A DNA stretch of 64,000 bases, taken from contig NZ_JACHIS010000001.1 in NCBI RefSeq assembly GCF_014203365.1, positions 5,146,001 to 5,210,000 of the forward strand, in the 5' to 3' direction. Source of the DNA: Actinoalloteichus hymeniacidonis. GTDB lineage: Bacteria; Actinomycetota; Actinomycetes; Mycobacteriales; Pseudonocardiaceae. The notes below the pieces were generated by a model, which saw only the letters and a list, made by a program, of their open reading frames with translations, ran no database searches and was not told the DNA's origin. Positions 24,375-48,517 of this stretch are shown piece after piece (position 1 is the stretch's first letter; each line of letters starts with the position of its first letter). Made by a program: the position numbers and the translations under genes.

Positions 24375-25271
24375 GTGCACGACAAGCACGCGGTCCGGGA
24401 TTTCCTCATGACCCGACGCGCCCGTCTTCGGCCCGCCCAGGTGGGCCTGCCCGACCTCGGTGATGCGCGACGTGTCCCCGGCCTGCGCCGCGAGGAGGTC
24501 GCCGTGCTCGCCGGGGTGAGCCTGGACTACTACACCCGACTGGAACGCGGGAACATCGCGGGCGCCTCGGACAGCGTGCTCGAAGCCGTCGCGGGCGCCC
24601 TGCTGTTGAACCAGACCGAGCGGACGCACCTGTTCGACCTGGCCCGCGCCGCCGCCTCGACCTCTCGGCGCCGGAAACCGACCCGTTCCCCGCACCACGT
24701 CCGGGGGTCCGTCCGGCGCATGATCGAGAGCATGGACACGGCCGCGGTCGTGCAGAACACGCGGCAGGACATCGTCGCCGCGAATGCGCTGGGTCGGGCC
24801 CTGTACGCGCCCATGTTCGACGCCGAGGACGAACCCAACACGGCGCGGTTCGCCTTCCTCGATCCGAGGGCGCAGAGCTTCTACGTGGACTGGGCGCAGG
24901 TGCGGCGCATGACGGCGGCGATGCTGCGCATGGAGGCGGGCCGGAATCCGCTGGATGCGGATCTGACCAGGCTGATCGGCGAGTTGTCCACCCGGAGCAG
25001 TGAGTTCCGCAAGGACTGGGCGGCCCACCATGTGCACGTGCACGAGACAGGCAAGAAGATCTTCTGCCATCCAGAGGTAGGCGAGATCGAGGTCGAGTTC
25101 GACGTCTTCGAGCTGGTGGGCGATCAGGGGCTTCGGCTGGCCACCTACGGCACCGAGCCAGGCACGCCGTCCGCCGATGCCTTCGCACTGCTGGCCTCGC
25201 TGACCATGACCGACCGGCAGGCCCGCACCCCGTCTCGGAGCAACATCCACGCATCGCACGAGGCCGATTAG
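24375..25271 (+). CDS. XRE-family regulator with MmyB-like ligand-binding domain (copy 1)
   Basis: 298 residues from a GTG start. The HTH at about 10-85 shows the family run VPGLRREEVAVLAGVSLDYY and TRLERGN. The C-terminal MmyB-like PAS domain (about 105-285) includes NALGRALYAPMF, FLDPRAQSFYVDW and HHVHVHETGKKIFCHPEVG. Such regulators bind fatty acids or similar ligands and control adjacent oxidoreductases. It follows the alcohol dehydrogenase in the same direction. Two more copies of the family are at 32365 and 37362. Confidence 0.9.
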   Translation: MHDKHAVRDFLMTRRARLRPAQVGLPDLGDARRVPGLRREEVAVLAGVSLDYYTRLERGNIAGASDSVLEAVAGALLLNQTERTHLFDLARAAASTSRRRKPTRSPHHVRGSVRRMIESMDTAAVVQNTRQDIVAANALGRALYAPMFDAEDEPNTARFAFLDPRAQSFYVDWAQVRRMTAAMLRMEAGRNPLDADLTRLIGELSTRSSEFRKDWAAHHVHVHETGKKIFCHPEVGEIEVEFDVFELVGDQGLRLATYGTEPGTPSADAFALLASLTMTDRQARTPSRSNIHASHEAD

Positions 25272-32161: not shown

Positions 32162-32364
32162 GACGAAACACTCCAAGGGCGGATGCTCAGGTCGGACGGG
32201 CACGGATCACGCCGGGGCCACTGACGCGGTGTGGTCCGCATCGACGCCTGCCGTTTCCGTTGCCACCCATCTCAATCGCGAGGACGGCCGCCAACCAGGG
32301 CCGCCCGCAACGGAGGGATTGGCAGTACCACCCTGGGAAGGGCGCAGGCGGCCATACTGGGTTC

Positions 32365-33225
32365 GTGGTCATCCAGGACAATCCGCTGGGCACGGCCCTG
32401 CGCCGCTGGCGGGATCGGGTCTCCCCGCTCGACGTGGGGCTACCCGTCGCCGGAAGACGCCGGGCCGCGGGCCTGCGCCGTGAAGAGCTCGCCACGCTCG
32501 CCGGACTGTCGGTGGACTACCTCGTGCGGTTGGAACAGGGTCGGGCCGTGCGGCCCTCCGAGCAGGTCGCCGGCGCGCTGGCTCGCGCGCTGCAATTGGA
32601 GACCTCGGAGCGGGATCACCTCTTCCGGCTGGCACACCTGCCGCTGCCGGGTCCCGAGCGGATCGCGACGCATATCCCGCCCAGCGTGCAACGATTGATC
32701 ATCGCGCTGGCAGATCAGGCCTTGGCGGTGTTCGCCGCAGACTGGACGCTGATCAGCTGGACTCCGCTGTGGGGTGCACTCATCGGCAATCCCGAGCGGG
32801 AGCCCGCGCGCCGCTACAACCTGGTTCGCGACACCTTCATCCACGATGAGTCCTTCGGCTGTGTGCCGTTCACGACCGCCCGAGGCGATGCCGCCAAGGA
32901 GGCCGCGCTCGTCGCCGACCTCCGTGCCACGCAGGGCGCTTTCCCGAACGACCCTCGGCTGCACGCGCTCATCGAGGAGTGTCGCGCCCGCAGCGACCGA
33001 TTCGCCGCGCTCTGGTCTCAGGACGCCACTGCTGGTGCGATGGGCCATGATCGGAAGACCTTCGCGCACCCCCTCGCGGGAGACATCACCCTCGACAGCG
33101 ACATCCTCACCGTTCCGGGCTCCGACCTGCGGATCATCGCCTTCACCACCGCCGCCGGGACCCGAGCCGCCGCACAGCTCGACTTCCTCCGGGTGGGCGC
33201 GGTGCACACATCGTTTGCGCCGTAA
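32365..33225 (+). CDS. XRE-family regulator with MmyB-like domain (copy 2)
   Basis: 286 residues from a GTG; the frame further upstream lacks homology. The HTH contains AAGLRREELATLAGLSVDYL and VRLEQGRAVRPS. The MmyB-like C-terminal domain contains DWTLISWTPLWGALIG, RYNLVRDTF and GHDRKTFAHPLAGDI. It is divergent from the MDR oxidoreductase across about 200 bp, with no obvious strong dyad in the gap. Compared with copies 1 and 3, the central domain is the most divergent, suggesting a different ligand. Confidence 0.9.
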   Translation: MVIQDNPLGTALRRWRDRVSPLDVGLPVAGRRRAAGLRREELATLAGLSVDYLVRLEQGRAVRPSEQVAGALARALQLETSERDHLFRLAHLPLPGPERIATHIPPSVQRLIIALADQALAVFAADWTLISWTPLWGALIGNPEREPARRYNLVRDTFIHDESFGCVPFTTARGDAAKEAALVADLRATQGAFPNDPRLHALIEECRARSDRFAALWSQDATAGAMGHDRKTFAHPLAGDITLDSDILTVPGSDLRIIAFTTAAGTRAAAQLDFLRVGAVHTSFAP

Positions 33226-37361: not shown

Positions 37362-38201
37362 TCAGTGCGATACCTGGCTGCCGATCACGGACAGCACCTG
37401 AAGTCGGTCGTAGCTCTCGGTACCGGGAACGGCCGTGTAGACCAGCAGCGCGTGCGATTGGCCAGGGTCGATCAACCGCTGACAATGCAGTTCCAGGGCA
37501 CCGACGTCGGGATGGACGTAGTGTTTGACCTCGTGCGGGCGCACCCCGATCTCGTGGCCGTTCCACAACCGCCGGAACTCCTCGCTCTGCGCCAGGAGCA
37601 GTTCGGCGAGGTGCGCGGCACGGGAATCGGGGCCGCGCAGGGTGACGATCTCGCGGAGCCCCGAGGCGTACATCCGGGAGAGGAATTCGTGTTCCTCCGG
37701 CGCGTGGATCAGCCGCGAGGCCGGATCGGTGAACCACCGGTAGCCCGTGCTCCGGGCCGGCCCGGTGAAGTTGGTGGTGTCCCCGGTCAAGGCAACGCCC
37801 ATCGGGGTCTGCCGCAGGGTCTCGCCGAGTTCGGTGACGATCTCCGCCGGTGTGTCGCTCAGCCGGTCGAGAATGCGAAGCAGGCCGGGGCTGATGTGTT
37901 CGCTGAAGGCTCCCCGCGCCGGCGGGTTGTGCCCGGCAAGCCGGAACAGGTGGTCGCGTTCGTCGAGGGACAGGTGTAGTCCCAACGCGATCGCGGTGAG
38001 CATCTGGGGCGAGGGCTGCGGTCCGCGTTCCCGTTCGAGGCGCGCGTAGTAGTCGGTCGACATGTGGCACAACAGGGCGACCTCCTCCCGGCGCAGCCCA
38101 TTGGTCCTGCGCCGACGGCCACGCGGCAGACCGACGTCCTCGGGTTGCAGCGCTTCCCGCCGGGTGCGGAGGAATTCCGCCAGCCCGATGCGATCGATCA
38201 C
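37362..38201 (-). CDS. XRE-family regulator with MmyB-like domain (copy 3)
   Basis: 279 residues from a GTG with AAGGAG six nt upstream. The HTH contains TNGLRREEVALLCHMSTDYY and ARLERERGP. The MmyB-like domain contains GYRWFTDPASRLIH, WNGHEIGVRPHEVKHYVH and LVYTAVPGTESYDRL. It is divergent from the SDR gene. The gap holds two outward-facing copies of a roughly 30-bp element, one in front of each gene. A third copy precedes the mpaB-like gene at 47042-48223, so all three may answer to this regulator. Confidence 0.9.
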   Translation of the reverse strand: MIDRIGLAEFLRTRREALQPEDVGLPRGRRRRTNGLRREEVALLCHMSTDYYARLERERGPQPSPQMLTAIALGLHLSLDERDHLFRLAGHNPPARGAFSEHISPGLLRILDRLSDTPAEIVTELGETLRQTPMGVALTGDTTNFTGPARSTGYRWFTDPASRLIHAPEEHEFLSRMYASGLREIVTLRGPDSRAAHLAELLLAQSEEFRRLWNGHEIGVRPHEVKHYVHPDVGALELHCQRLIDPGQSHALLVYTAVPGTESYDRLQVLSVIGSQVSH

Positions 38202-38246
38202 TCGCTTCTCCTTCTCGAGTACTGCCCTCGTTGCTACCGCGTGCGC

Positions 38247-38276
38247 GCCGAGATAACCACGGACCGCCGATCCCCC
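38247..38276 (-). promoter_or_regulatory. shared GGGGATC-N6-CCGTGGTT element, copy A (before XRE copy 3)
   Basis: Reading on the minus strand, it contains GGGGATC, six bases, CCGTGGTT, then ATCTCGGC, and ends 45 bp before the regulator's GTG. It matches copy C at 26 of 30 positions and copy B at 23 of 30. Confidence 0.6.
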
Positions 38277-38306
38277 CATGTCCTGCGCAGGGACGACCTC
38301 GGGAGC

Positions 38307-38336
38307 CGGGGATCAGCAGGCCGTGGTTAGCGCCGC
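38307..38336 (+). promoter_or_regulatory. shared GGGGATC-N6-CCGTGGTT element, copy B (before the SDR gene)
   Basis: Plus-strand copy, 30 bp from copy A and facing the opposite way, towards the SDR gene whose start is 148 bp on. The fifteen core bases are identical to the other copies and the six-base gap length is conserved. Confidence 0.55.
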
Positions 38337-38484
38337 GCAGCCCGCCGAAGATCGATGGCGGGGTCGGACCGCGAACACCTCGTCGACGGGTCGACCGGCT
38401 CTCGGAGTCCGGTTCCCCGCGATTGGGTCCAGGCGCTGCCGGCAAACCCCGACACAGCGAATCGTCATGACAAGGAGCAGCACC

Positions 38485-39429
38485 ATGGCACGCCGAACCA
38501 TCGACATCACGATCCCCGATCTGACCGGGAAACGCGCGCTCGTCACCGGTGCCAGCGACGGGATGGGACTGGGAATCGCCGCCCGCCTGGCCGAGGCAGG
38601 CGCGGAGGTGATCATGCCGGTTCGCAACCGGGGCAAGGGCGAGCGGGCGATCAACCGCATCCGCAAGACCGCTCCGGACGCGAAGCTCGAACTGGCCAGC
38701 CTCGACCTGTCCTCGCTGGACTCGGTCGCCGCACTCGGCGAGGGGCTGCGCGCCGCCGGTCGGCCCATCCACCTACTGATCAACAACGCGGGTGTGATGC
38801 AACCGCCTGACCGGCAGACCACGGCCGACGGCTTCGAGATTCAATTCGGTACCAACCACCTGGGTCACGTCGCCCTCGTCGGCGCGCTGCTGCCCCTGCT
38901 GCGGGCGGGCCGGGCGCGGGTGACCTCGCAGATCAGCATCGCGGCCCGCAGCGGCCGCATCAACTGGGACGACCTGAACTGGGAGCAGGGCTACCACGGA
39001 CAACGCGCCTACAGTCAGTCCAAGATCGCCTTCGGACTCTTCGGCCTGGAACTCGACCGCCGCAGCAGGACCCACGGCTGGGGCATCACCAGCAACCTCT
39101 CCCATCCCGGGGTGGCCCCGACCAGCCTGCTCGCCGCCCGCCCCGAACTCGGCCGCAGCGAGGACACCCCACAGATCCGGATGATTCGCAGGCTCTCGGA
39201 ACGCGGCATCCTGCTGGGCACCGTCGAGACCGCGAAACTGCCCGCGCTGCTGGCGGCGACCAGCCCCGATGCCCAGGGCGGCACCCTCTACGGGCCCAGC
39301 GGCATCGGCAACCTCGGTGGTCCGCCCGCGCAGCATCGGCTGTACGCGCCGCTGCGCAGCGTCGAGGAGGCCGCCCGGGTCTGGGACGTCTCCGTGCAGC
39401 TCGCCAACTGCACGTTCCCCGTCGCCTGA
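38485..39429 (+). CDS. short-chain dehydrogenase/reductase (retinol-dehydrogenase-like)
   Basis: 314 residues. The cofactor motif [10 protein letters not shown] lies at 21-30, NNAGVMQPP follows, and the catalytic residues are in [10 protein letters not shown] and YSQSKIA. The long C-terminal region ([21 protein letters not shown] onward) matches the SDR subgroup related to WW-domain oxidoreductase/retinol dehydrogenase. I chose the second ATG because AAGGAG sits seven nt before it; an upstream ATG at 38467 is the alternative. It is divergent from XRE copy 3 and probably controlled by it. Confidence 0.92.
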
Positions 39430-39528
39430 CCCCGGCGCTTCGGCCAACCCGTAGGACGACGCCCAGCACCGGAGTCCCGAAGATCGCGGCCGTCGACTCC
39501 GAGAGGGCGTCGCATCGGCAGGCTTCCG

Positions 39529-42054
39529 CTAGCCGAGTGGGCCGGGATCCGTCGTCAACAGCGGCAACCCTGCGGCATGGCGACGCAGGAACGTCGCGGT
39601 CGCCGTGTCGGCCTTCGCGACGGTATCGACGGTGCCCGCCGCGACGACTGCGCCACCGTTGGGCCCGGCGCCCGGTCCCAGGTCGATCACCCAGTCCGCC
39701 GAGGCCACGACGGGGATGTCGTGTTCGGCCACCACGACGGTGTTGCCCGAGTCGAGCAGCATGTCGAGCGCGTTCACCACCCGTTGGACGTCGGAGGGAT
39801 GCAGGCCGGCGGTGGGCTCGTCCAGGATGACCAGACCGGCCTGACGACTCGCCGCACCGCGTTGGATGGCGGCCGCCAGTTTCAACCGCTGCGCCTCGCC
39901 ACCGGACAGTTCGGTGGCGCTCTGGCCGAGTCGGAGGTAACCCAGCCCGACTCGGTACAGCGCGTCGAGGGTCTCCGCGAGCTGGTGCGGTGTCGGAAAA
40001 CGTTCGACGGCCTCGGCGACGGTCAGCTCCAACACCTGGTCGATGGTCATCCCCCGGTACTGGATGCGCAGCGCCTCCGGTGCGTAGCGCCGCCCATCGC
40101 AGGTATCGCAGACCACCCACACATCCGGCAGGAAGTGCATGTCGACCAACTTTCGACCGTGGCCCGAGCATGTCGCGCACCGGCCGCCGTCGGCGGTGTT
40201 GAAGCTGAACCAGGACGCCGTCACTCCGAGTTCGCGGGCCGCATCCGTCTCGGCGAATAACCGGCGGATGCTGTCGAAGGCCTTGCTGTAGGTGGCTGGA
40301 TTGGACCGAGGGGTTCGGCCCAACGGTTCTTGATCGGCCACCGCGACCCAGCCGAAGGCCTCGATTCCGGTCACTTCGCGCACGACATCGGTCGCCGTTT
40401 CGGCCAGCGCTGCCTGCACGCCGGTCGCCAACGCCCCGAGCAGGCTGCTCTTGCCGCTGCCGCTCACCCCGGTGAGGCAGGTGAGCCTGTTGACGGGCAG
40501 CCGCACCAGATCCGAGGTCACGTTGTGCGACCGCAGGCCGTGCAACCCCAACCAGCCGGTGGCGGTGTCGATCGATCTGTGGACGCGGCGCAGTCGAGGT
40601 CCCGCACCGGACAGATACCGGCCGGTCACCGACTCCGGGTGGTCGACTACGGCGGCGGGCGGCCCCGACACCAGGACCTCGCCGCCGTGGCTGCCCGCCC
40701 CCGGGCCGAGATCGATCACCCAGTCGGCCTTGGCGATCAGCTCGGGATCATGCTCGACCAACAGCACCGTGTTGCCCGCCGCGCGCAACTCCAGGGCGAT
40801 GTCGAGCAGCTGTGCCTTGTCCGCCGGGTGCAGGCCGGTTCCCGGCTCGTCCAGCACGAAGGTGAGGTCGCTGAGTTCGGTGCTCAGCTGCGCGGCGAGT
40901 CTGCTGCGTTGCAGTTCGCCGCCCGACAAGGATGCCGCGTTCCTGGACAGCTGCAGATGGGCCAGCCCAAGCCGATCGAGGACGCCGAGTCGTCGATCGA
41001 GGTCCTGCAACAGCGGTTCGCCGACCTCGCGATGTCGAAGGTCGAGCTCGTCGGTCACCTGTGCCGTCCAGTCCCGCACCCGCCGGACCTCCACCGCCAA
41101 CAGTTCGGGATAGCTCAACCCGCCCAGCCGCACCGATCGGGCCGCCTGGTCGTACCCGCTGCCCCCGCAGGTCACGCAGGGCTGCTTGCGCAGGTACGGC
41201 AGGTATCGCTGCTTGGCGTTGGCGGTCTGCGCGTTGACGAACACCCGCTCCACCTCGGCCAGCGCGCCGCGCAGCGGTTGGCTGGAGGTGTAGGTCATGT
41301 GGGCCGTCTCGTTGCGGTTCGGCAGCGCGACCGTCGCCTCGATGCTCTCCGACCCGGTGCCGTACAGCACGCAGTTGCGGAACTCCGCAGGCAAGGACTG
41401 CCACGGCAGGCTCAGATCCACCCCCCGCTGCTGAGCGAGCGCCGGGATGAACGCGTGCTCGCCGGACCGCCATTTCGCGTACCAGGGCGAGGCGCCCTCG
41501 AAGAGCGGTAACGCGGGCTGCGTAATGATCAGATCTTCCTGAGCCTGCCAGCGTCCGCCGACCCCGTGGCAGTCCGCGCAACCGCCTTCCGGTGTGCCGC
41601 GGTCGAAGTGCGCGGTGGTCAGCAGGCCCGATGCTTCGGGACCTGCGTCGATGGCGGGTAGCCGCGAGTACAGCAGTCCCAGGTGTCCGTCGATGCCGGT
41701 CATCGTCGCGACCGTGGACCTCGGGTTGCGGTTCAGCCGCCGTTGGTCCACCGCGAGGGTGGCGCCGAGGCCGAGGACACGATCGACCCTGGGCCGGTTC
41801 CGCTGGGTGATGTACTGGCGCACGAACGGCGAGAGGCCCTCCAGATACCGCAGTTGGGCCTCGTTGTGCAGGGTGTCGATGGCCAGCGAGGTCTTGCCGC
41901 TGCCACTGACCCCGGTGAAGGCGACGAGTCGTCCCTTCGGGATGCGCACCGACACGTCGCGCAGGTTGTTGGTCCGCGCGCCCACCACCTCGATGAGGCC
42001 GCGCTCGCCCTGCGCGGCCGAAACCTCGGCCTGGGCGGTGATCGACCCGGTCAT
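39529..42054 (-). CDS. UvrA-like excinuclease ATPase (UvrA2 class)
   Basis: 841 residues, shorter than the roughly 950 of housekeeping UvrA. It carries two ATPase modules, with Walker [10 protein letters not shown] (48-56) and later GVSGSGKSS, and signatures [12 protein letters not shown] and [12 protein letters not shown]. Zinc-type cysteine pairs are at [27 protein letters not shown] and CDTCDGRRY. The reduced length fits UvrA2 proteins, which lack the UvrB-binding region and are associated with resistance to DNA-damaging compounds. Its ATG overlaps the stop of the pyridoxamine-oxidase-fold gene, so the two form an operon under a strong upstream dyad. Confidence 0.88.
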
Positions 42055-42587
42055 GCCCACGCGCCCTGGTCGGCCACCAGCTTGGTGATGTCGGGTGCGT
42101 ACGCGGTCATCCAGTGCGGATCCAACCGGTAGTAGACGACTTCCGACTCCCAATCGAAGGCGTCCGACCCGTAGAACTCCTGGAGGTACGCGCGCAGGTA
42201 CGGCCAATCGGCAGCCGGTTCGCCGCCTGCCGGGTTGAGGACCTGCACGGTGCCGTGGGTGAACACGCCCAGTTCCTCACCCCGCAGATGCGCGGCGCTG
42301 ACGGCGGGCCGCGCGGCCAGATGGCGGGCCTTGGCGGCGGTGGGCGCGGTGCCGAAGTACCACTTCCCGTGCAGGAAATGCCCGTCCACCGCACTGATCC
42401 TCGGCTCGCCCTTCGCCGTCACCGTGGACAGCGCCAAGGTGCACATGCCGGTGAGCACCTCGGTGAGCTGCACGGCGGTCGGGGTGCTGTCGGTGTTGAT
42501 GATCGAACGCAGGTGTGCGGTGGACCGGGACAGCGAGGCGTCCAGCAGTCCTTGCAGCTCATCGAGGTCCCGTGTTGTCTCGCGCAT
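42051..42587 (-). CDS. pyridoxamine 5'-phosphate oxidase-fold (flavin/F420-binding type) protein
   Basis: 178 residues from the ATG preceded by GAAGG; earlier ATGs at 42605 and 42668 lack such a site. The split-barrel core is visible in CTLALSTVTAKGEPRISAVD and GKWYFGTAPTAAKARHLAA. Such proteins bind FMN, F420 or haem and reduce or degrade small molecules; the cofactor cannot be fixed here. It is first in an operon with the UvrA-like gene (ATGA overlap). That pairing suggests a detoxifying enzyme working alongside damage recognition, as inference. Confidence 0.8.
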   Translation of the reverse strand: MRETTRDLDELQGLLDASLSRSTAHLRSIINTDSTPTAVQLTEVLTGMCTLALSTVTAKGEPRISAVDGHFLHGKWYFGTAPTAAKARHLAARPAVSAAHLRGEELGVFTHGTVQVLNPAGGEPAADWPYLRAYLQEFYGSDAFDWESEVVYYRLDPHWMTAYAPDITKLVADQGAWA

Positions 42588-42659
42588 CGAACACCCTTCG
42601 TCCATCGGTAGGTCCGCGGCCGACGGCAGGCGTCGACCACCGGTCATCCTCGACGCGAG

Positions 42660-42680
42660 ACCTGACATCTACTGTCAGGT
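42660..42680. promoter_or_regulatory. ACCTGACA-N5-TGTCAGGT operator before the PNPOx/uvrA2 operon
   Basis: Perfect 8-bp arms, 73 bp upstream of the chosen start of the first gene. It looks like a site for a dimeric repressor such as TetR or MarR. No such regulator gene is adjacent, so the binder is unknown. Confidence 0.6.
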
Positions 42681-42768
42681 TTCCCGACGTGTTTTCTCGG
42701 CCGTCCTCATCACCCTGGGCCTGCTCGCCCCGACCCGCGAATCCCGACGAACGCCGCAGCCGGCGCGT

Positions 42769-43806
42769 TTACCCCGCCGCGCGATCGGCCGGGACGCGAC
42801 GACGTAGCCAGGCCGCCCGCAGACTCGGCGGCACGAAGGCGACATCGACCGGCCCGAGATCGGTGCCGGGCGGCACGATCTCATCGATGCGATCGAGTAG
42901 GTCGTCGTCCAGCGAGGTGCCGACGCCCGCCAGCAGGTCGTCCAGCTGGGTCATCGTGCGCGGTCCGATGATCGCCGAGGTGACCGCCGGATGGGCGATG
43001 ACGAAGGCCAGTGCGAGGTGTGGCAGCGGCACCCCGGCCTGCTCGGCGACCGGGATGAGCGCTTCGACGGCATCGAGTTTGCGCTCGTCGGTCATGTGCT
43101 TGGGCGCCCATCGCAGGCGCGAGGCCGAGGCAGCCTCGCCGCCCTGCTTGCGAAAGCGGCCGGTGAGCAACCCCATCGACAACGGACTCCACACCAGCGT
43201 GCCGAGGCCGTAGCGTTCGCAGATCGGCAGGATCTCGCGTTCGATGCCTCGGTTGAGGATCGAGTAGTGCGGCTGTTCGCTGCGGTATCGAGCCAGCCCG
43301 CGCCGCTGAGACACCCATTGAGCCTCGACGATCTCCGAGGCGACCAGGTTGGAGTGCCCGATGGCCCGCACCTTGCCCGAACGGAGCAGGTCGGTCAGCG
43401 CGCCGAGCGTCTCCTCGTGGTCGGTGTCCGGATCGGGGTGGTGGAGTTGGTAGAGGTCGAGGTGATCGACCCCGAGTCGGCGCAGCGAGCCCTCGACGGC
43501 CTCGACGATCCACCGACGTGAACCGCCCTGCTGGTTGGCGCCCGGCCCCATCGGGCCGCTGAACTTGGTGGCGAGGACGACGTCGTCGCGTCGGCCCCGC
43601 AGCGCCTTACCGACGATCTCCTCGGATTCCCCGTCGCCGCCGTAGACGTCGGCGGTGTCGATGGTGTTGATCCCGGCGTCGAGCGCGCGGTGGATGATCC
43701 GCACGCAGTCGTCGTGGTCGGTGTTGCCCGCCCGGCCGAACATCATGGTGCCCAGCGCGTAGGGGGTGACCTGGATGCCGGTCCGTCCGAGTGGTCGAGT
43801 GCGCAC
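42769..43806 (-). CDS. aldo/keto reductase
   Basis: 345 residues, a TIM-barrel NADPH reductase. The catalytic tetrad is visible: D50 and Y55 in NTIDTADVYGG, K81 in LATKFSG, and H122 in LYQLHHPDP. The cofactor region IPVAEQAGVPLPHLALAFVI and IIGPRTMTQLDD matches the YhdN/L-glyceraldehyde reductase-like group. It lies 69 bp downstream of the WYL regulator gene at 43876, on the same strand. They may be co-transcribed. Substrate unknown. Confidence 0.93.
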   Translation of the reverse strand: MRTRPLGRTGIQVTPYALGTMMFGRAGNTDHDDCVRIIHRALDAGINTIDTADVYGGDGESEEIVGKALRGRRDDVVLATKFSGPMGPGANQQGGSRRWIVEAVEGSLRRLGVDHLDLYQLHHPDPDTDHEETLGALTDLLRSGKVRAIGHSNLVASEIVEAQWVSQRRGLARYRSEQPHYSILNRGIEREILPICERYGLGTLVWSPLSMGLLTGRFRKQGGEAASASRLRWAPKHMTDERKLDAVEALIPVAEQAGVPLPHLALAFVIAHPAVTSAIIGPRTMTQLDDLLAGVGTSLDDDLLDRIDEIVPPGTDLGPVDVAFVPPSLRAAWLRRRVPADRAAG

Positions 43807-43875
43807 GAGGTTTCTCCTCCGATGGCTTCGCGGTTCTCGCGCACTCTGTCGGCGGTACCGGTCATCTGACGTCCG

Positions 43876-44853
43876 CTACCGACGGTGTCTTTCCGCCGCA
43901 TCGGCGAAGCGCTGCGCGAGCAATCGGAAGGCGTCGGCGAGTTCGACGGGCGCCACCTCGGTGATGGCGACCTCGAAACGACCGATCGAAGCGGCCAGGG
44001 CCTGCCAGGACCACGACCCGGTGATCAGCCTGCACCGGTCGGGTCCGAGTTCCTCGACAATGCCGTCCGGTACGAAGGGCGCGACCCGATCCGCAGGCAG
44101 CTCCAGGACGACCTCGCCCGTGCAGGGCCACCTGTTGCCCCGATCCGAGCCCTTGAAGCGAGCGGCGAGGAATTCGCGCACGTCACCACCCGGCACGGTG
44201 CGCGGGGTGAAACGCGGACCGGTGGGGACCCGGGGCGTCAACCGGTCCAGCCGATACACCCGCCAATCCTCGGCGTCGAGGTCCCAGGCGACGAGGTACC
44301 AGCGTCCGGCACCGAGCACGACGTGATGCGGCTCGACCCGCCGCCGAGCCGGTGCGGCCGACGCATCGCGCCCGACCGAGACGTAGTCGAACCGCAGGAT
44401 CTCGCGCGCCCGGACCGCCGTGCTCACGGCGATGAGCACCTCGGCGTCGACCGAGGTCCCGGCGTCGGCGGGCAGGGTCGTGAAGGTCATCGCGTCGATC
44501 CGGTGCCGCAGTCTGGCCGGCATCACCTGCCGCACGGTCTGCAATGCACGCAGCGCCGTCTCGCCGTCGGCCGCGCCCGAGGCAGCGGCGGCCTGCAGGG
44601 CGACGGCGAGCGCGACCGCCTGGTCGTCGTCGAACAACAACGGCGGCAGCTCCGAACCCGCATCGAGTCGATAGCCGCCGTCCGGGCCCTTGATCGCCAC
44701 GATCCGATAGCCGAGTTCGCGCAGCTGGTCGATATCGCGGCGCATCGTGCGGTCGCTGATCTTCAACCGCTCGGACAGCACCCGGCCCGGCCAGTCACGC
44801 CGAGTCTGCAACAGCGACAGCAGCTTCAGCATCCGCGACGGTGATCCGGCCAT
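43876..44853 (-). CDS. YafY-type HTH/WYL-domain transcriptional regulator (copy 1)
   Basis: 325 residues from the ATG giving MAGSPSRMLKLLSLLQ; the open frame further upstream belongs to no family. The N-terminal HTH11 is RVLSERLKISDRTMRRDIDQ, the middle WYL domain contains RRRVEPHHVVLGAGRWYLVAWD, and a WCX domain lies at the C-terminus. WYL domains bind ligands, including nucleotides. It is divergent from the VOC protein gene and followed by the aldo/keto reductase. No strong dyad was found in the 114-bp gap. Confidence 0.9.
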   Translation of the reverse strand: MAGSPSRMLKLLSLLQTRRDWPGRVLSERLKISDRTMRRDIDQLRELGYRIVAIKGPDGGYRLDAGSELPPLLFDDDQAVALAVALQAAAASGAADGETALRALQTVRQVMPARLRHRIDAMTFTTLPADAGTSVDAEVLIAVSTAVRAREILRFDYVSVGRDASAAPARRRVEPHHVVLGAGRWYLVAWDLDAEDWRVYRLDRLTPRVPTGPRFTPRTVPGGDVREFLAARFKGSDRGNRWPCTGEVVLELPADRVAPFVPDGIVEELGPDRCRLITGSWSWQALAASIGRFEVAITEVAPVELADAFRLLAQRFADAAERHRR

Positions 44854-44967
44854 GTCACCGATTCTGGCAGAGAAGCGGACGCGATATGACCGGTACTGGT
44901 GTGAAGCTGCTCGGCGAGCGGGGAAGACCACCGGCTCGCAGACCCGAGAACAAGGAAGAAATCCGAC

Positions 44968-45387
44968 ATGAGCGTCAACGTCACACCGCACCTGAACTTC
45001 CGAGGCGACGCCCGGAAGGCGCTGGAGTTCTACCAGTCCGTGTTCGGCGGCAAGCTGGTGATCGCGGCCTACTCCGACATGGGCAACACCGACCCCGCCA
45101 CCGCCGACCACGTCAGCTTCGGCCAGCTCACCGCCGAGAACGGCTTCAGCGTCATGGCCTACGACGTCTACCCACACCTGGAGTGGGACCAGGGCAAGGA
45201 CCCGTTCTTCGTGTCCGTTCGAGGCACCGACACGGCCGAGTTGCAGGGCTACTGGGACAAGCTCGTCGACGGCGCCGAGGTGAAGCAGCCCCTCGGCCCC
45301 TCGGAGTGGGCGCCGCTCTACGGCCAGCTCACCGACCGCTTCGGCATCACCTGGGTGTTGGACATCGCGGTCGCCTACCCCGCCTGA
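44968..45387 (+). CDS. VOC/PhnB-family protein (glyoxalase fold)
   Basis: 139 residues. The opening VTPHLNFRGDARKALEFYQSVFGGKLV is diagnostic of PhnB-like VOC proteins; a second beta-alpha-beta unit ends with YGQLTDRFGITWVLDI. Most members bind metal and act on, or bind, small toxic metabolites; no precise reaction can be assigned. AAGGAAG precedes the start. It is divergent from WYL regulator copy 1 and closed by a strong hairpin. Confidence 0.88.
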   Translation: MSVNVTPHLNFRGDARKALEFYQSVFGGKLVIAAYSDMGNTDPATADHVSFGQLTAENGFSVMAYDVYPHLEWDQGKDPFFVSVRGTDTAELQGYWDKLVDGAEVKQPLGPSEWAPLYGQLTDRFGITWVLDIAVAYPA

Positions 45388-45403
45388 TCGGCGTCGACAA
45401 CTG

Positions 45404-45436
45404 CGGCCGCCGCGACCAACTTGGTCGCGGCGGCCG
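45404..45436. terminator. bidirectional terminator hairpin
   Basis: Perfect 16-bp complementary arms CGGCCGCCGCGACCAA / TTGGTCGCGGCGGCCG separated by one base; the central AACTT region would form the loop. It lies between the convergent VOC and WYL regulator genes. Confidence 0.8.
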
Positions 45437-45479
45437 TTCGCGCGAAGATCCCAGCGGAGGCGACGTTCAAATCTCGAGA

Positions 45480-46457
45480 TCAGTGGCTCGGCCCGTAGCG
45501 GGTGGCGATCCCCTCGGCGCGACCGTGCAGCGTGGTGCGCAGCCACTGCGGGGTCAAGGCTTCCGCGTCCGTGGCAAGCGTCCATAACGCCCATTCCGCG
45601 TGTCGCGAATCCTGGAAATCGGCCTCCAGCCGCAGCCAGCCGTCCGCGTCGGCTTCCTCGGCGCGGACGGCGAGCGCGGTCCGCGCCAGCTCAGCCCGCC
45701 GCGCCGGATGCAACCGCAGCAGCACGGTGACCTGCTCGCCGCCAGACCGAAAGCTCGTGCTGCGTGCCCGCCAGGTGTGGTCCAGGTCGATACGGTCGGG
45801 TCGTTGAGCAGGCTCCGTCAACTCCTCGGCGGCCAGGATCCGAGCCAGCCGGTAGGTGCGGTCCGCACCGGACCGAGTGGCGAGTAGGTAGCCCTGTCCG
45901 CGTGCCGTGACCAGCCCGATCGGGTCCACCGTCCGCCACTTCGGATCCTGGTTCACGGCTGTGTAATGGATGCGTAGTCGATGGCCCGCGAGCACCGCGC
46001 GCCGAACCTCGGTCATCACGGCGTCGGGGACCTCCTCCTCGGCGCCTCGGGCGCGGGAGAGCAGATCGGCCGCTGGTTCGACGAGCAATCGGCGAGCCGC
46101 ATCGGCCGAGGTAGATCGATAGCTGTCGGGCAATGCATCGACCACCTTGCGCATCGCCGAGGCCAGCGCGGAACCGAGACCGAAGGCCTGCGCACCGCTG
46201 CGAGACCCGGCGACCAACAGGGCTAGCGCCTCGTCGTGGTTCAGCCCGGTGAGATCGGTCCGGAAATCGGACAACAATACGAAACCGCCGTGCCGACCGC
46301 GCTCCGCGTAGACCGGCACGCCTGCAGCAGACAGCGCCTCGATGTCGCGCAGCACGGTGCGGGTCGAGACCTCCAGCTCGCCTGCTATCGCCGCCGCGGA
46401 CAACCGCCCGCGCTGGCGGAGCAGCAACACCAACGAGATCAGCCGGTCGGCGCGCAT
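45480..46457 (-). CDS. YafY-type HTH/WYL-domain transcriptional regulator (copy 2)
   Basis: 325 residues. The HTH contains SAAAIAGELEVSTRTVLRDIE, and the WYL region contains WRTVDPIGLVTARGQGYLLATRSG followed by RTYRLARILAAEE. A WCX domain closes the protein. It is divergent from the Rid-family gene across an 83-bp gap occupied by a 35-bp perfect dyad that begins 12 bp upstream of its own ATG, so it should repress both genes through that site. Confidence 0.92.
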   Translation of the reverse strand: MRADRLISLVLLLRQRGRLSAAAIAGELEVSTRTVLRDIEALSAAGVPVYAERGRHGGFVLLSDFRTDLTGLNHDEALALLVAGSRSGAQAFGLGSALASAMRKVVDALPDSYRSTSADAARRLLVEPAADLLSRARGAEEEVPDAVMTEVRRAVLAGHRLRIHYTAVNQDPKWRTVDPIGLVTARGQGYLLATRSGADRTYRLARILAAEELTEPAQRPDRIDLDHTWRARSTSFRSGGEQVTVLLRLHPARRAELARTALAVRAEEADADGWLRLEADFQDSRHAEWALWTLATDAEALTPQWLRTTLHGRAEGIATRYGPSH

Positions 46458-46469
46458 TCGAAGAAGTTA

Positions 46470-46504
46470 CCGGAATACACGACACAGGATGTCGTGTATT
46501 CCGG
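46470..46504. promoter_or_regulatory. perfect 15-bp-arm operator between wyl and rid genes
   Basis: CCGGAATACACGACA and its exact complement TGTCGTGTATTCCGG flank CAGGA. It lies 12 bp before the WYL regulator start and 36 bp before the Rid start, covering both expected promoters. Confidence 0.88.
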
Positions 46505-46540
46505 GAAGGCTCGCCTCATCACAACCGAGAGGAAGCCCCC

Positions 46541-46942
46541 ATGGCACACACCATCGTCAACCCCGCCGGTCTACACAATCCGGTTCCGCGTGGTTACAGC
46601 CACACCGCCGCTATCTCCGCGGATACGGGTCTGGTGTTGATCGCGGGTCAGTACGGATCGACCCCGGATGGCGAGATCGTCTCGTCCGACTTCACCGAGC
46701 AGGTCGAGCAGACCTTCCGCAACATCGGTGTCGCCTTGGCCGCGCACGGGCTCGATCTCGGCCACGTCGTCCAACTCCGGACCTATGTGGTGAACCACGA
46801 CGTCGGCAAGCTCGGGCCGATCGCCGCAGCTGTACGGAAGAACTGGGGCGAGAATCCGCCCACGCAGACCCTCATCGGAGTCGCAGGCCTGGCCACGCCC
46901 GACGTGCTGTTCGAGGTCGAGGCGTTGGCCGCCCGCCCCTGA
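46541..46942 (+). CDS. Rid-family (YjgF/YER057c/UK114) protein
   Basis: 133 residues, with GAGAGGAAG before the ATG. Family features are HTAAISADTGLVLIAGQYG, the QVEQTFRNIGVALAAHGLDL helix and DVLFEVEALA at the end. RidA proper hydrolyses reactive imines using an arginine in the PARSxVEV segment; here the aligned stretch reads PTQTLIGV, so that arginine seems to be replaced and imine deaminase activity is doubtful. It probably belongs to another Rid subgroup. Control by the divergent WYL regulator is indicated by the shared dyad. Confidence 0.85.
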   Translation: MAHTIVNPAGLHNPVPRGYSHTAAISADTGLVLIAGQYGSTPDGEIVSSDFTEQVEQTFRNIGVALAAHGLDLGHVVQLRTYVVNHDVGKLGPIAAAVRKNWGENPPTQTLIGVAGLATPDVLFEVEALAARP

Positions 46943-46962
46943 CCCGCAACCGACGGCGGACA

Positions 46963-46987
46963 CCCGCCGAGCAGTGAGCTCGGCGGG
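46963..46987. terminator. bidirectional terminator hairpin
   Basis: Perfect 10-bp arms CCCGCCGAGC / GCTCGGCGGG with a 5-nt loop, 20 bp after the Rid stop codon and 55 bp from the convergent mpaB-like stop. Confidence 0.7.
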
Positions 46988-47041
46988 CGTCTCCCGTTGG
47001 TCGGGCGATCCAGGCGCCATGCCTAACGATCGGCATCGGTC

Positions 47042-48223
47042 TCACGCTGCGGCGGCGTGCTCCTGGTACGCGGTCGGGTCGGGGAGGGCCGCGATGAGAC
47101 CGTTGAAGGCGCGGATGCCCGCTTCCTCGGCCGTCTGCAAAGCACCCGGAAGCTGCAACTGGTGGCTGCGCGCTTTCGCCTCGCCTGCGGCAAGCAGGGG
47201 CAGCACCGCCGTGACGGGCGATTCGGGAATGCCCAGTGCATCGGCGGTGGCCGCGCCGTGGAAAGACCGGGTCACCGCATGGACCAGATCGCGCCAACCC
47301 GTAGCGTCCATCGGTGACTGCGGTTGGGCGGCAAGCGTGGTGATCGCGGCGTCGAGCAGCGCCCCAACCAGCGCCCTGCTGTCGTCGTCCGGCGGGGCGG
47401 TCGTCGAGTCGAGCAAATCCAGCAGTTCCGCCGCCTGCTCGTGGTTCTCGATGCCGAGGAAGAATCGTTCGTCGAGCCCGAGTAGCCGCGCCACGTACCA
47501 CCAGTACCGGTAGAGACGGGACTGTTCCTCCTGAGTCAGCGAGTAGCCGATGCCCGCCAGGAAGTTGAAGGGCACCACGGTGAAGTCGAGCCAGGTGCGC
47601 GCGATATCGGCCTGGTTGATCGGCACTCCCCACCGGCCTGCTTCCCACCCATGCGCGGTGGCCGTGGCTCGAACCCGCGCATGCAGCAACCGGACCTGCA
47701 CCGTCTGCACATAGCCCGGGGCGCCACGCAGCAGACCGCCGGGCAGGATCGCCGACGCATTCCACAGCCCGGTCTCGGCGAGCCGACGCGGCGCGGTCGA
47801 GGTCAACCGACCGGTGCCGACCAGCAATCTCGCAATCGACGGAGAACTATAGGTGTGGACCAACGATCCGCAGGAGAACGCCAGATTGCTCCAGTGAAAC
47901 GGCACCGCGAGCGAGGTCCGATCGCCGTCCGCCAGCTGCATCGTGGAAACCCACTCGGGCAAGGTCTCCACCTGGGCGAGCAGCGCGTCGACGGCGGGCG
48001 GCGCATCCGACACAGCCGCTCGCCCCTCGGCGAGACCGCGCTGTAGTGCAACGCGAGCGGATCGACCCAACTCGTCGAACTCGACGATGACGGCATCGGC
48101 CAGCGGATCCCCCACCTGCAGCATCCGCAGGATGAAGTCGAACCGATCCCCGTGGCGGGCCCGGGCGGCAGCGGGATCCACGATCCGCTCCGGCATCGGC
48201 GAGACGTCGTTCAAGATGGTCAT
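47042..48223 (-). CDS. MpaB/DUF2236-family oxygenase-like protein
   Basis: 393 residues, largely helical. The family core HARVRATATAHGWEAGRWGV then PINQADIARTWLDFT is clear; related proteins include fungal MpaB and bacterial latex-clearing protein, which are haem or metal oxygenases that cleave hydrocarbon chains. Histidine and aspartate of this core are the probable metal/haem ligands. No ribosome site is visible before the chosen ATG. Copy C of the shared GGGGATC-N6-CCGTGGTT element ends 23 bp upstream, linking it to XRE copy 3 and the SDR gene 10 kb away. Substrate unknown. Confidence 0.82.
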   Translation of the reverse strand: MTILNDVSPMPERIVDPAAARARHGDRFDFILRMLQVGDPLADAVIVEFDELGRSARVALQRGLAEGRAAVSDAPPAVDALLAQVETLPEWVSTMQLADGDRTSLAVPFHWSNLAFSCGSLVHTYSSPSIARLLVGTGRLTSTAPRRLAETGLWNASAILPGGLLRGAPGYVQTVQVRLLHARVRATATAHGWEAGRWGVPINQADIARTWLDFTVVPFNFLAGIGYSLTQEEQSRLYRYWWYVARLLGLDERFFLGIENHEQAAELLDLLDSTTAPPDDDSRALVGALLDAAITTLAAQPQSPMDATGWRDLVHAVTRSFHGAATADALGIPESPVTAVLPLLAAGEAKARSHQLQLPGALQTAEEAGIRAFNGLIAALPDPTAYQEHAAAA

Positions 48224-48246
48224 GAGGTCGTTTCTATTCGCCCCGA

Positions 48247-48276
48247 GCCGGGACAACCACGGACTTCCGATCCCCC
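48247..48276 (-). promoter_or_regulatory. shared GGGGATC-N6-CCGTGGTT element, copy C (before the mpaB-like gene)
   Basis: Minus-strand copy facing the mpaB-like gene and ending 23 bp before its ATG. It differs from copy A at four of 30 positions. The rest of the 294-bp gap to the ABC gene on the other side shows no other clear site. Confidence 0.6.
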
Positions 48277-48517
48277 TCTCGGCACGAACCTCCGGCACGG
48301 TCGTGGATCTTCGGAGGCGTTGCAGGGCACCGCGCCACACGATTGCCGCCGGGTCCGCTCAAGCGCCGACCTCGGCGATCGGTCGCGGAACAGATTTAGC
48401 GGTGCCGATTCACCGAGCAGTCTGCTGTCGCGCGAACCAGCGGAGTACCGTCTCGATCGGTGCGCCGGGAAGTCTGGTCGGCATGGTGTGATCGTTGTCG
48501 TCGAGAGGAACGAGCCC

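Follow-up and report, generated by a model that had tools for sequence, protein, structure and literature searches.

A predicted operator-promoter unit shared by a MmyB-like regulator gene, its divergent SDR gene and a distant mpaB-like gene in Actinoalloteichus hymeniacidonis

Regulators of the MltR/MmyB family (MltR is Caur_2278, PDB 3pxp) combine an XRE helix-turn-helix with a PF17765 domain, as does the A. hymeniacidonis regulator considered here. According to PMC3406030, MmyB, the namesake of the family, turns its target genes on and recognises pseudo-palindromic 'B-boxes', myristic acid is modelled in MltR, and the divergent arrangement of a MmyB-type regulator gene and an SDR gene is already published.

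We analysed a 64,000-nucleotide stretch of the A. hymeniacidonis genome (hereafter, the window), in which the gene of a MmyB-like regulator is divergent from an SDR gene on the opposite strand, as expected of MmyB/MltR regulators. Three copies of a short element lie in the window, and on the sequence evidence they are very probably the operators of this regulator, through which it would control itself, the SDR gene and an mpaB-like gene; this conclusion does not depend on the sign of the regulation. The genes and copies are the following.

37362-38201, minus strand: MmyB-like XRE regulator gene (helix-turn-helix plus PF17765, GTG start), the proposed binder
38485-39429, plus strand: divergent SDR oxidoreductase gene, PRK05854 subfamily (NCBIfam NF004513, 537.7 bits against a cut-off of 282; Pfam PF00106)
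47042-48223, minus strand: MpaB/Lcp-type oxygenase-like gene (Pfam PF09995, MPAB_Lcp_cat, 71.8 bits against a cut-off of 23)
38247-38276, minus strand: copy A of the element, 30 bp
38307-38336, plus strand: copy B of the element, 30 bp
48247-48276, minus strand: copy C of the element, 30 bp

Three copies of the element and the proposed binder

A preliminary description of the window had placed the three copies at these positions, and the sequence confirms all of them. The identities it gave, 26/30 for A against C and 23/30 for A against B, are reproduced, and B and C agree at 22/30. All 15 fixed bases of the shared pattern, GGGGATC-N6-CCGTGGTT, are exact in A, B and C. Across the 6.3-Mb genome, the pattern has three exact matches, all at A, B and C, no match with one mismatch, and 44 matches with two mismatches; the control, the pattern read backwards, has 10 genome matches in total at up to two mismatches. 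None of 100 dinucleotide shuffles of the window yields an exact match. Once three mismatches are allowed, the window by itself no longer stands out (5 matches against 3.6 expected), so the signal sits in the exact copies.

The genomic context is also as described: A and B lie back to back between the XRE regulator gene and the SDR gene, and C ends 23 bp ahead of the ATG of the mpaB-like gene at 48223. Site A was said to be non-coding, which is correct provided that the regulator starts at the GTG at 38201; this GTG is preceded by an RBS-like GAAGGAG, and it gives a VIDR/MIDR start as in the eight orthologues displayed. On the far side of the SDR gene, and convergent with it, a frame on the minus strand (39529-42207) was judged from its sequence to encode a UvrA-like double ABC ATPase.

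The copies lie within 10 kb and the mpaB-like gene is patchily distributed, as might be expected of a small repeat, a mobile element or a chance sharing of bases. We reject these readings, to which we assign a negligible probability, on the uniqueness of the pattern in the genome, the empty shuffles and the conservation of the element in many genera, at fixed promoter positions with diverging flanks (see below).

The proposed binder has clear Pfam matches to MLTR_LBD (PF17765; 132.3 bits against a cut-off of 26.3) and HTH_31 (38.9 bits, above cut-off). The top Foldseek match of its predicted structure, a moderate model with a mean pLDDT of 69.4, is MltR (3pxp_A; E=6.2e-6), although the TM-score is as low as 0.26. 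A PDB search with the single regulator sequence gave no match at E<=0.01, and a PDB profile search gave three matches, all of helix-turn-helix type, with 3pxp not among them.

Operator anatomy and promoter layout

The element is kept upstream of orthologues of the regulator, and of the divergent SDR gene, across actinomycete genera. Our sample comprised the best 80 of at least 548 confirmed relatives of the regulator, at 73-84% identity. A matrix was iterated from GGGGATC-N6-CCGTGGTT over the upstream regions of 81 loci, one of them the window (all 380 bp long but for one of 229 bp), and produced a sharp motif with weak flanks. At a PWM score of at least 20, the element is present upstream of the regulator in 78 of the 81 loci, window included, and has no site in three (L061, L075 and L086); it faces the regulator in 68 loci, faces away from it in 58, and does both in 48. 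Over ten random splits, 92.5-100% of the 40 loci held out had the element, as did 1 of 395 control stretches drawn from the same loci as the orthologues; these splits test the weights of the matrix, not the alignment, because the register of the sites had been fixed on all loci beforehand.

The aligned sites define a 25-bp pseudo-palindrome that reads, by their counts, about AnSSnnGGATCGRCRRKCCSTGGHT. The 'N6' of the original pattern turns out to be a simplification: these six positions are constrained across relatives and form the middle of the pseudo-palindrome. The matrix is most like its own reverse complement at the centre of the element (r=0.54, next best 0.32). The two-fold symmetry of the DNA target is thus present at the level of the PWM and imperfect in single sites, with 6, 5 and 4 of the 12 palindrome pairs matched in A, B and C, respectively. 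A perfect palindrome was rejected: in a cross-site shuffle the observed mean pairing was reached in 692 of 1000 cases, and the co-variation between the arms is no greater than the column preferences.

The operators and the predicted −10 elements of the window are as follows, with PWM scores from a matrix retrained without the window on 126 sites at the loci of the 80 orthologues.

38253-38280, minus strand: operator A, facing the regulator; centre of the pseudo-palindrome at 38267; PWM 33.2; R1 E=2.9e-4 genome-wide
38303-38330, plus strand: operator B, facing the SDR gene; centre at 38316, 49-50 bp from that of A; PWM 32.2; R1 E=1.8e-4
48253-48280, minus strand: operator C, at the distant target; centre at 48267, 44 bp before the ATG; PWM 28.8; R1 E=1.9e-3
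38231-38236, minus strand: predicted −10 of the regulator promoter, TAGCAA, downstream of the 28-bp unit of A at a spacing of 16 bp
38347-38352, plus strand: predicted −10 of the SDR promoter, GAAGAT, which fits nAnnnT
48231-48236, minus strand: predicted −10 of the mpaB-like gene, TAGAAA, downstream of the 28-bp unit of C at a spacing of 16 bp, with the ATG 7 nt further on

Over the 64 kb, this window-free matrix finds nothing besides A, B and C at a score of 12 or more. Of the 48 loci with paired operators, 22 have a distance of 45-52 bp between the two centres (49-50 bp in the window); in the others it ranges from 1 to 238 bp. At three loci (L093, L201 and L204), one near-palindrome seems to serve both divergent promoters.

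The promoter layout is nearly fixed. The downstream, promoter-proximal arm of the operator (CCGTGGTTR) overlaps the −35 region, and 92 of 126 promoters carry, at the −35 distance, the hexamer TGG(A/C/T)T(A/G), which is part of this arm; the −35 consensus is TTGACA. Among the promoters that face the regulator, 61 of 68 have a TAGAAA-like −10 (at least 5 of 6 bases) 16-17 bp after the 28-bp unit, and the remaining 7 have no TAGAAA-like hexamer at that distance. The −10 of the promoters that face the SDR gene reads nAnnnT: of these 58 promoters, 50 have A at position 2 of the hexamer and 49 have T at position 6. Each copy had been said to point at its gene, and this layout accounts for it: the −35 region is overlapped by the downstream arm, and the −10 lies beyond. 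Since a constrained 25-bp pseudo-palindrome overlaps the −35 and the −10 usually follows 16-17 bp on, the element appears to be an operator-promoter unit for autoregulation, for the divergent SDR gene and for a distant target.

Specifically, we propose that the 25-bp pseudo-palindrome, whose centre lies about 43-44 bp from the presumed transcription start, would be the site of a regulator dimer. Each operator would be built into the promoter that it controls, with one arm in the place of the −35 and a weak −10 16-17 bp on, and the targets would be the regulator itself, the divergent SDR gene and the mpaB-like oxygenase gene 10 kb off. Binding would lead to class II activation, in the manner of lambda cI on PRM, perhaps in response to a ligand, which by analogy with the myristic acid of MltR may be amphipathic.

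We favour an activator, with moderate confidence, because the spacing is rigid, the −35 is poor and the −10s are weak. A repressor acting at the same operators would cover the −35, block RNA polymerase and be released by ligand, so that the regulon would be the same and the sign opposite. The sites do overlap the −35 distance, and a precedent exists in the XRE regulator MsrR, which represses itself and divergent genes according to PMC7532634. A repressor has no need for a fixed distance to the −10, yet this distance is fixed in the 61 of 68 promoters above; moreover, the predominant hexamer at the −35 distance is not TTGACA, the −10s are without consensus bases, and MmyB is portrayed as switching its targets on in PMC3406030. 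On balance, repression is the less probable reading of the operators, and we retain activation as the working model.

A second alternative concerns the identity of the binder, which could be another protein, such as a paralogue of the regulator or a special sigma factor that reads the element. A. hymeniacidonis has 13 PF17765 matches. One of these (L037/L265, G000:C1:3255230-3256057) is a paralogue that is 58% identical to the regulator and resembles it in the recognition helix, and in relatives, related elements also accompany regulator homologues of 51-60% identity; the unusual −10 sequences would suit a sigma factor. However, the element accompanies orthologues of the regulator at 37362-38201 and not the 12 other PF17765 genes: in their 3.5-kb loci, nothing reaches a score of 12 at 11 of the 12, the 58%-identical paralogue included, and the twelfth (L031) shows a weak match, scoring 18.2, at a distance of about 850 bp from the open frame. 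Moreover, a sigma factor would have to read the same element with different −10s on its two sides, and the single palindromes that seem to serve both directions suit a dimeric regulator. We therefore regard another binder as quite unlikely, and the regulator at 37362-38201 most likely binds all three sites.

Further PF17765-type genes were observed in passing. Two more MmyB-like regulators are encoded in the window (24699-25193 and 32260-33225), neither with an operator nearby, and a PF17765 regulator match elsewhere in the genome (G000:C1:5510928-5511422, minus strand) contains an in-frame TAG.

Targets within and beyond the window

A genome-search model built from 33 sites, none from the window, was run on the A. 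hymeniacidonis genome, with 150 of 7420 first-look candidates scored. Its only matches at E<=0.1 are A, B and C, with E-values from 1.8e-4 to 1.9e-3. Site C, the lowest-scoring of the three, is the third-best match, and the next is a weak one at E=0.15 (G000:C1:4850239, the same place as the match at L031). Many matches inside coding regions or a lack of promoter bias, either of which would by the preliminary description have spoken against the proposal, did not turn up in the whole-genome searches.

We extended the search, under stricter filters, to 100 genomes: that of A. hymeniacidonis, two of the same genus and 97 more distant ones; at least one of the 100, G034, had also supplied training sites (L047). 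It gave 33 matches at E<=0.01 in 26 genomes, three of them being A-C; the other 74 genomes, in a few of which the presence of the regulator was checked, have no match at this threshold under these filters. The 28 matches from other genomes that were given a locus were inspected, and two others without a locus were left out. Fifteen of the 28 precede a regulator homologue (51-83% identity) and seven an SDR homologue (68-79%). What follows the remaining six is in one case a DUF3159 gene, in another a sulfatase gene (identified from the same site in L047), and otherwise a weak methyltransferase match, the end of a contig and, twice, no recognised gene. A search of 31 genomes reached via a regulator locus gave 55 matches, and 2 of these genomes have none at E<=0.02.

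Within the orthologue loci, away from the regulator, there are 26 extra matches scoring at least 20. These precede 9 SDR copies, 2 regulator copies, 7 molybdenum-hydroxylase subunits and 1 sulfatase, and the remaining seven comprise one sub-cut-off SDR match, three without a Pfam match, one contig end and two left out of the search. The molybdenum-hydroxylase sites, on the sequence evidence, likely widen the regulon. The genes behind them are listed below.

L049:5568-6305: molybdenum-hydroxylase gene behind an operator
L050:7491-8135: molybdenum-hydroxylase gene behind an operator
L078:7633-8307: molybdenum-hydroxylase gene behind an operator
L069:11131-11757: molybdenum-hydroxylase gene behind an operator
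L079:11173-11853: molybdenum-hydroxylase gene behind an operator
L100:1341-2012: molybdenum-hydroxylase gene behind an operator
L073:13128-14855: gene of a molybdenum-hydroxylase FAD subunit behind an operator, Pseudonocardia

The first six are genes of the small [2Fe-2S] subunit, in Promicromonospora, Micromonospora, Plantactinospora and Streptomyces. On a Pseudonocardia plasmid (L174:5370-7131), the gene opposite the regulator encodes a DUF3159 protein, not an SDR, and a DUF3159 gene is likewise behind the site in L180.

The two genomes of the same genus differ from the window. G002 has the regulator-SDR pair, with no third site at E<=0.1, and its sole mpaB match is a relative at 32% identity. 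G001 has no regulator closer than 60%, and the site model matches there only at E=0.013-0.062.

The mpaB-like protein shares its PF09995 domain with the latex-clearing protein Lcp/MpaB oxygenases, and its phmmer match to the rubber oxygenase 5o1m is remote (E=8.9e-5, 25 bits). An R-x2-H-x3-R stretch aligns with 5o1m and is invariant in the five sequences compared; its histidine presumably binds haem. Close homologues are rare: at E<=1e-60 they occur in 7 out of 397 genomes from the order and in 11 out of 394 from the class (A. hymeniacidonis included in both); at E<=1e-90, homologues are found in 15 of 341 genomes of the family of G804. No relatives were found in viral contigs.

Six close mpaB sequences, 64-100% identical, were compared: that of the window, those of G804 (76%), G771 (74%) and G900 (77%), and two Pseudonocardia plasmid copies (65%). 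The operator precedes the gene in all six, a count that includes the window and two near-identical plasmids, with the −10 at 16-17 bp and the ATG 6-7 nt beyond the −10 in each, and the mRNAs are apparently leaderless. The G900 locus, retrieved last in order to test the prediction, bore it out. The distance between the mpaB site and a regulator varies: about 1.15 Mb in G804, where the regulator has its own operator pair; 157 kb in G771, where the regulator also has a site; and 1.7 kb on the Pseudonocardia plasmid, whose regulator is 72% identical.

More distant mpaB homologues, at up to 54% identity, do not share the operator: none of 51 fetched loci scores 15 or more, a set that leaves out 15 of 45 matches of one homologue search, 18 of 20 plasmid records and weaker matches without a locus. 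The second mpaB homologue of G900 (50%) has no site, nor does the 52% homologue of G785, even though that genome has a 79%-identical regulator, nor the 52% homologue of G671, which has no regulator closer than 36%.

Taken together, the conservation at regulator orthologues, the divergent SDR gene and the six close mpaB genes support the original suggestion that the element is the site of the regulator, with the SDR and mpaB-like genes as targets. The small regulon of an SDR and an oxygenase-like protein proposed with it stands in that both are linked to the element, and falls short in that the regulator, itself probably also a target, had been overlooked. The mpaB-like gene seems to have spread together with its operator. 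We tentatively suggest that the operator is a portable 'plug', an idea that is plausible without being firmly favoured: the rare mpaB-like gene would move between distant actinomycetes with a regulator-type promoter and a leaderless ATG, coming at once under the control of a regulator that many actinomycetes already have. Genes for molybdenum hydroxylases, a sulfatase and DUF3159 proteins would have been brought under the same operator elsewhere, so that it would act as a common control point of oxidative or carbonyl metabolism under a class II activator.

Comparison with known systems

The proposed regulon is unusually clear. The divergent arrangement of regulator and SDR is known, and an operator sequence for this MmyB-like clade was not found in searches of open-licence papers; the available parts of PMC3406030, PMC7532634, PMC12565409 and PMC10717218 contain no such operator. 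MmyB-like regulators are numerous, as the 13 PF17765 matches of A. hymeniacidonis illustrate. Because the operator is precise and the promoter layout nearly fixed, regulons in actinomycetes can be predicted by sequence search and DNA for binding tests is at hand, and the regulated genes, encoding an SDR, molybdenum hydroxylases and an MpaB-like oxygenase, are clues to the ligand of the regulator.

MsrR of Corynebacterium glutamicum resembles the regulator in acting on its own and a divergent promoter via a shared intergenic site, and differs from it as a thiol-based repressor of 240 residues whose divergent target is an MFS gene, as reported in PMC7532634. With respect to mechanism, the proposed operator geometry resembles lambda cI at PRM, an analogy of mechanism alone and not of kinship.

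At PRM, cI is a dimeric helix-turn-helix protein centred near −42 at a promoter with a poor −35.
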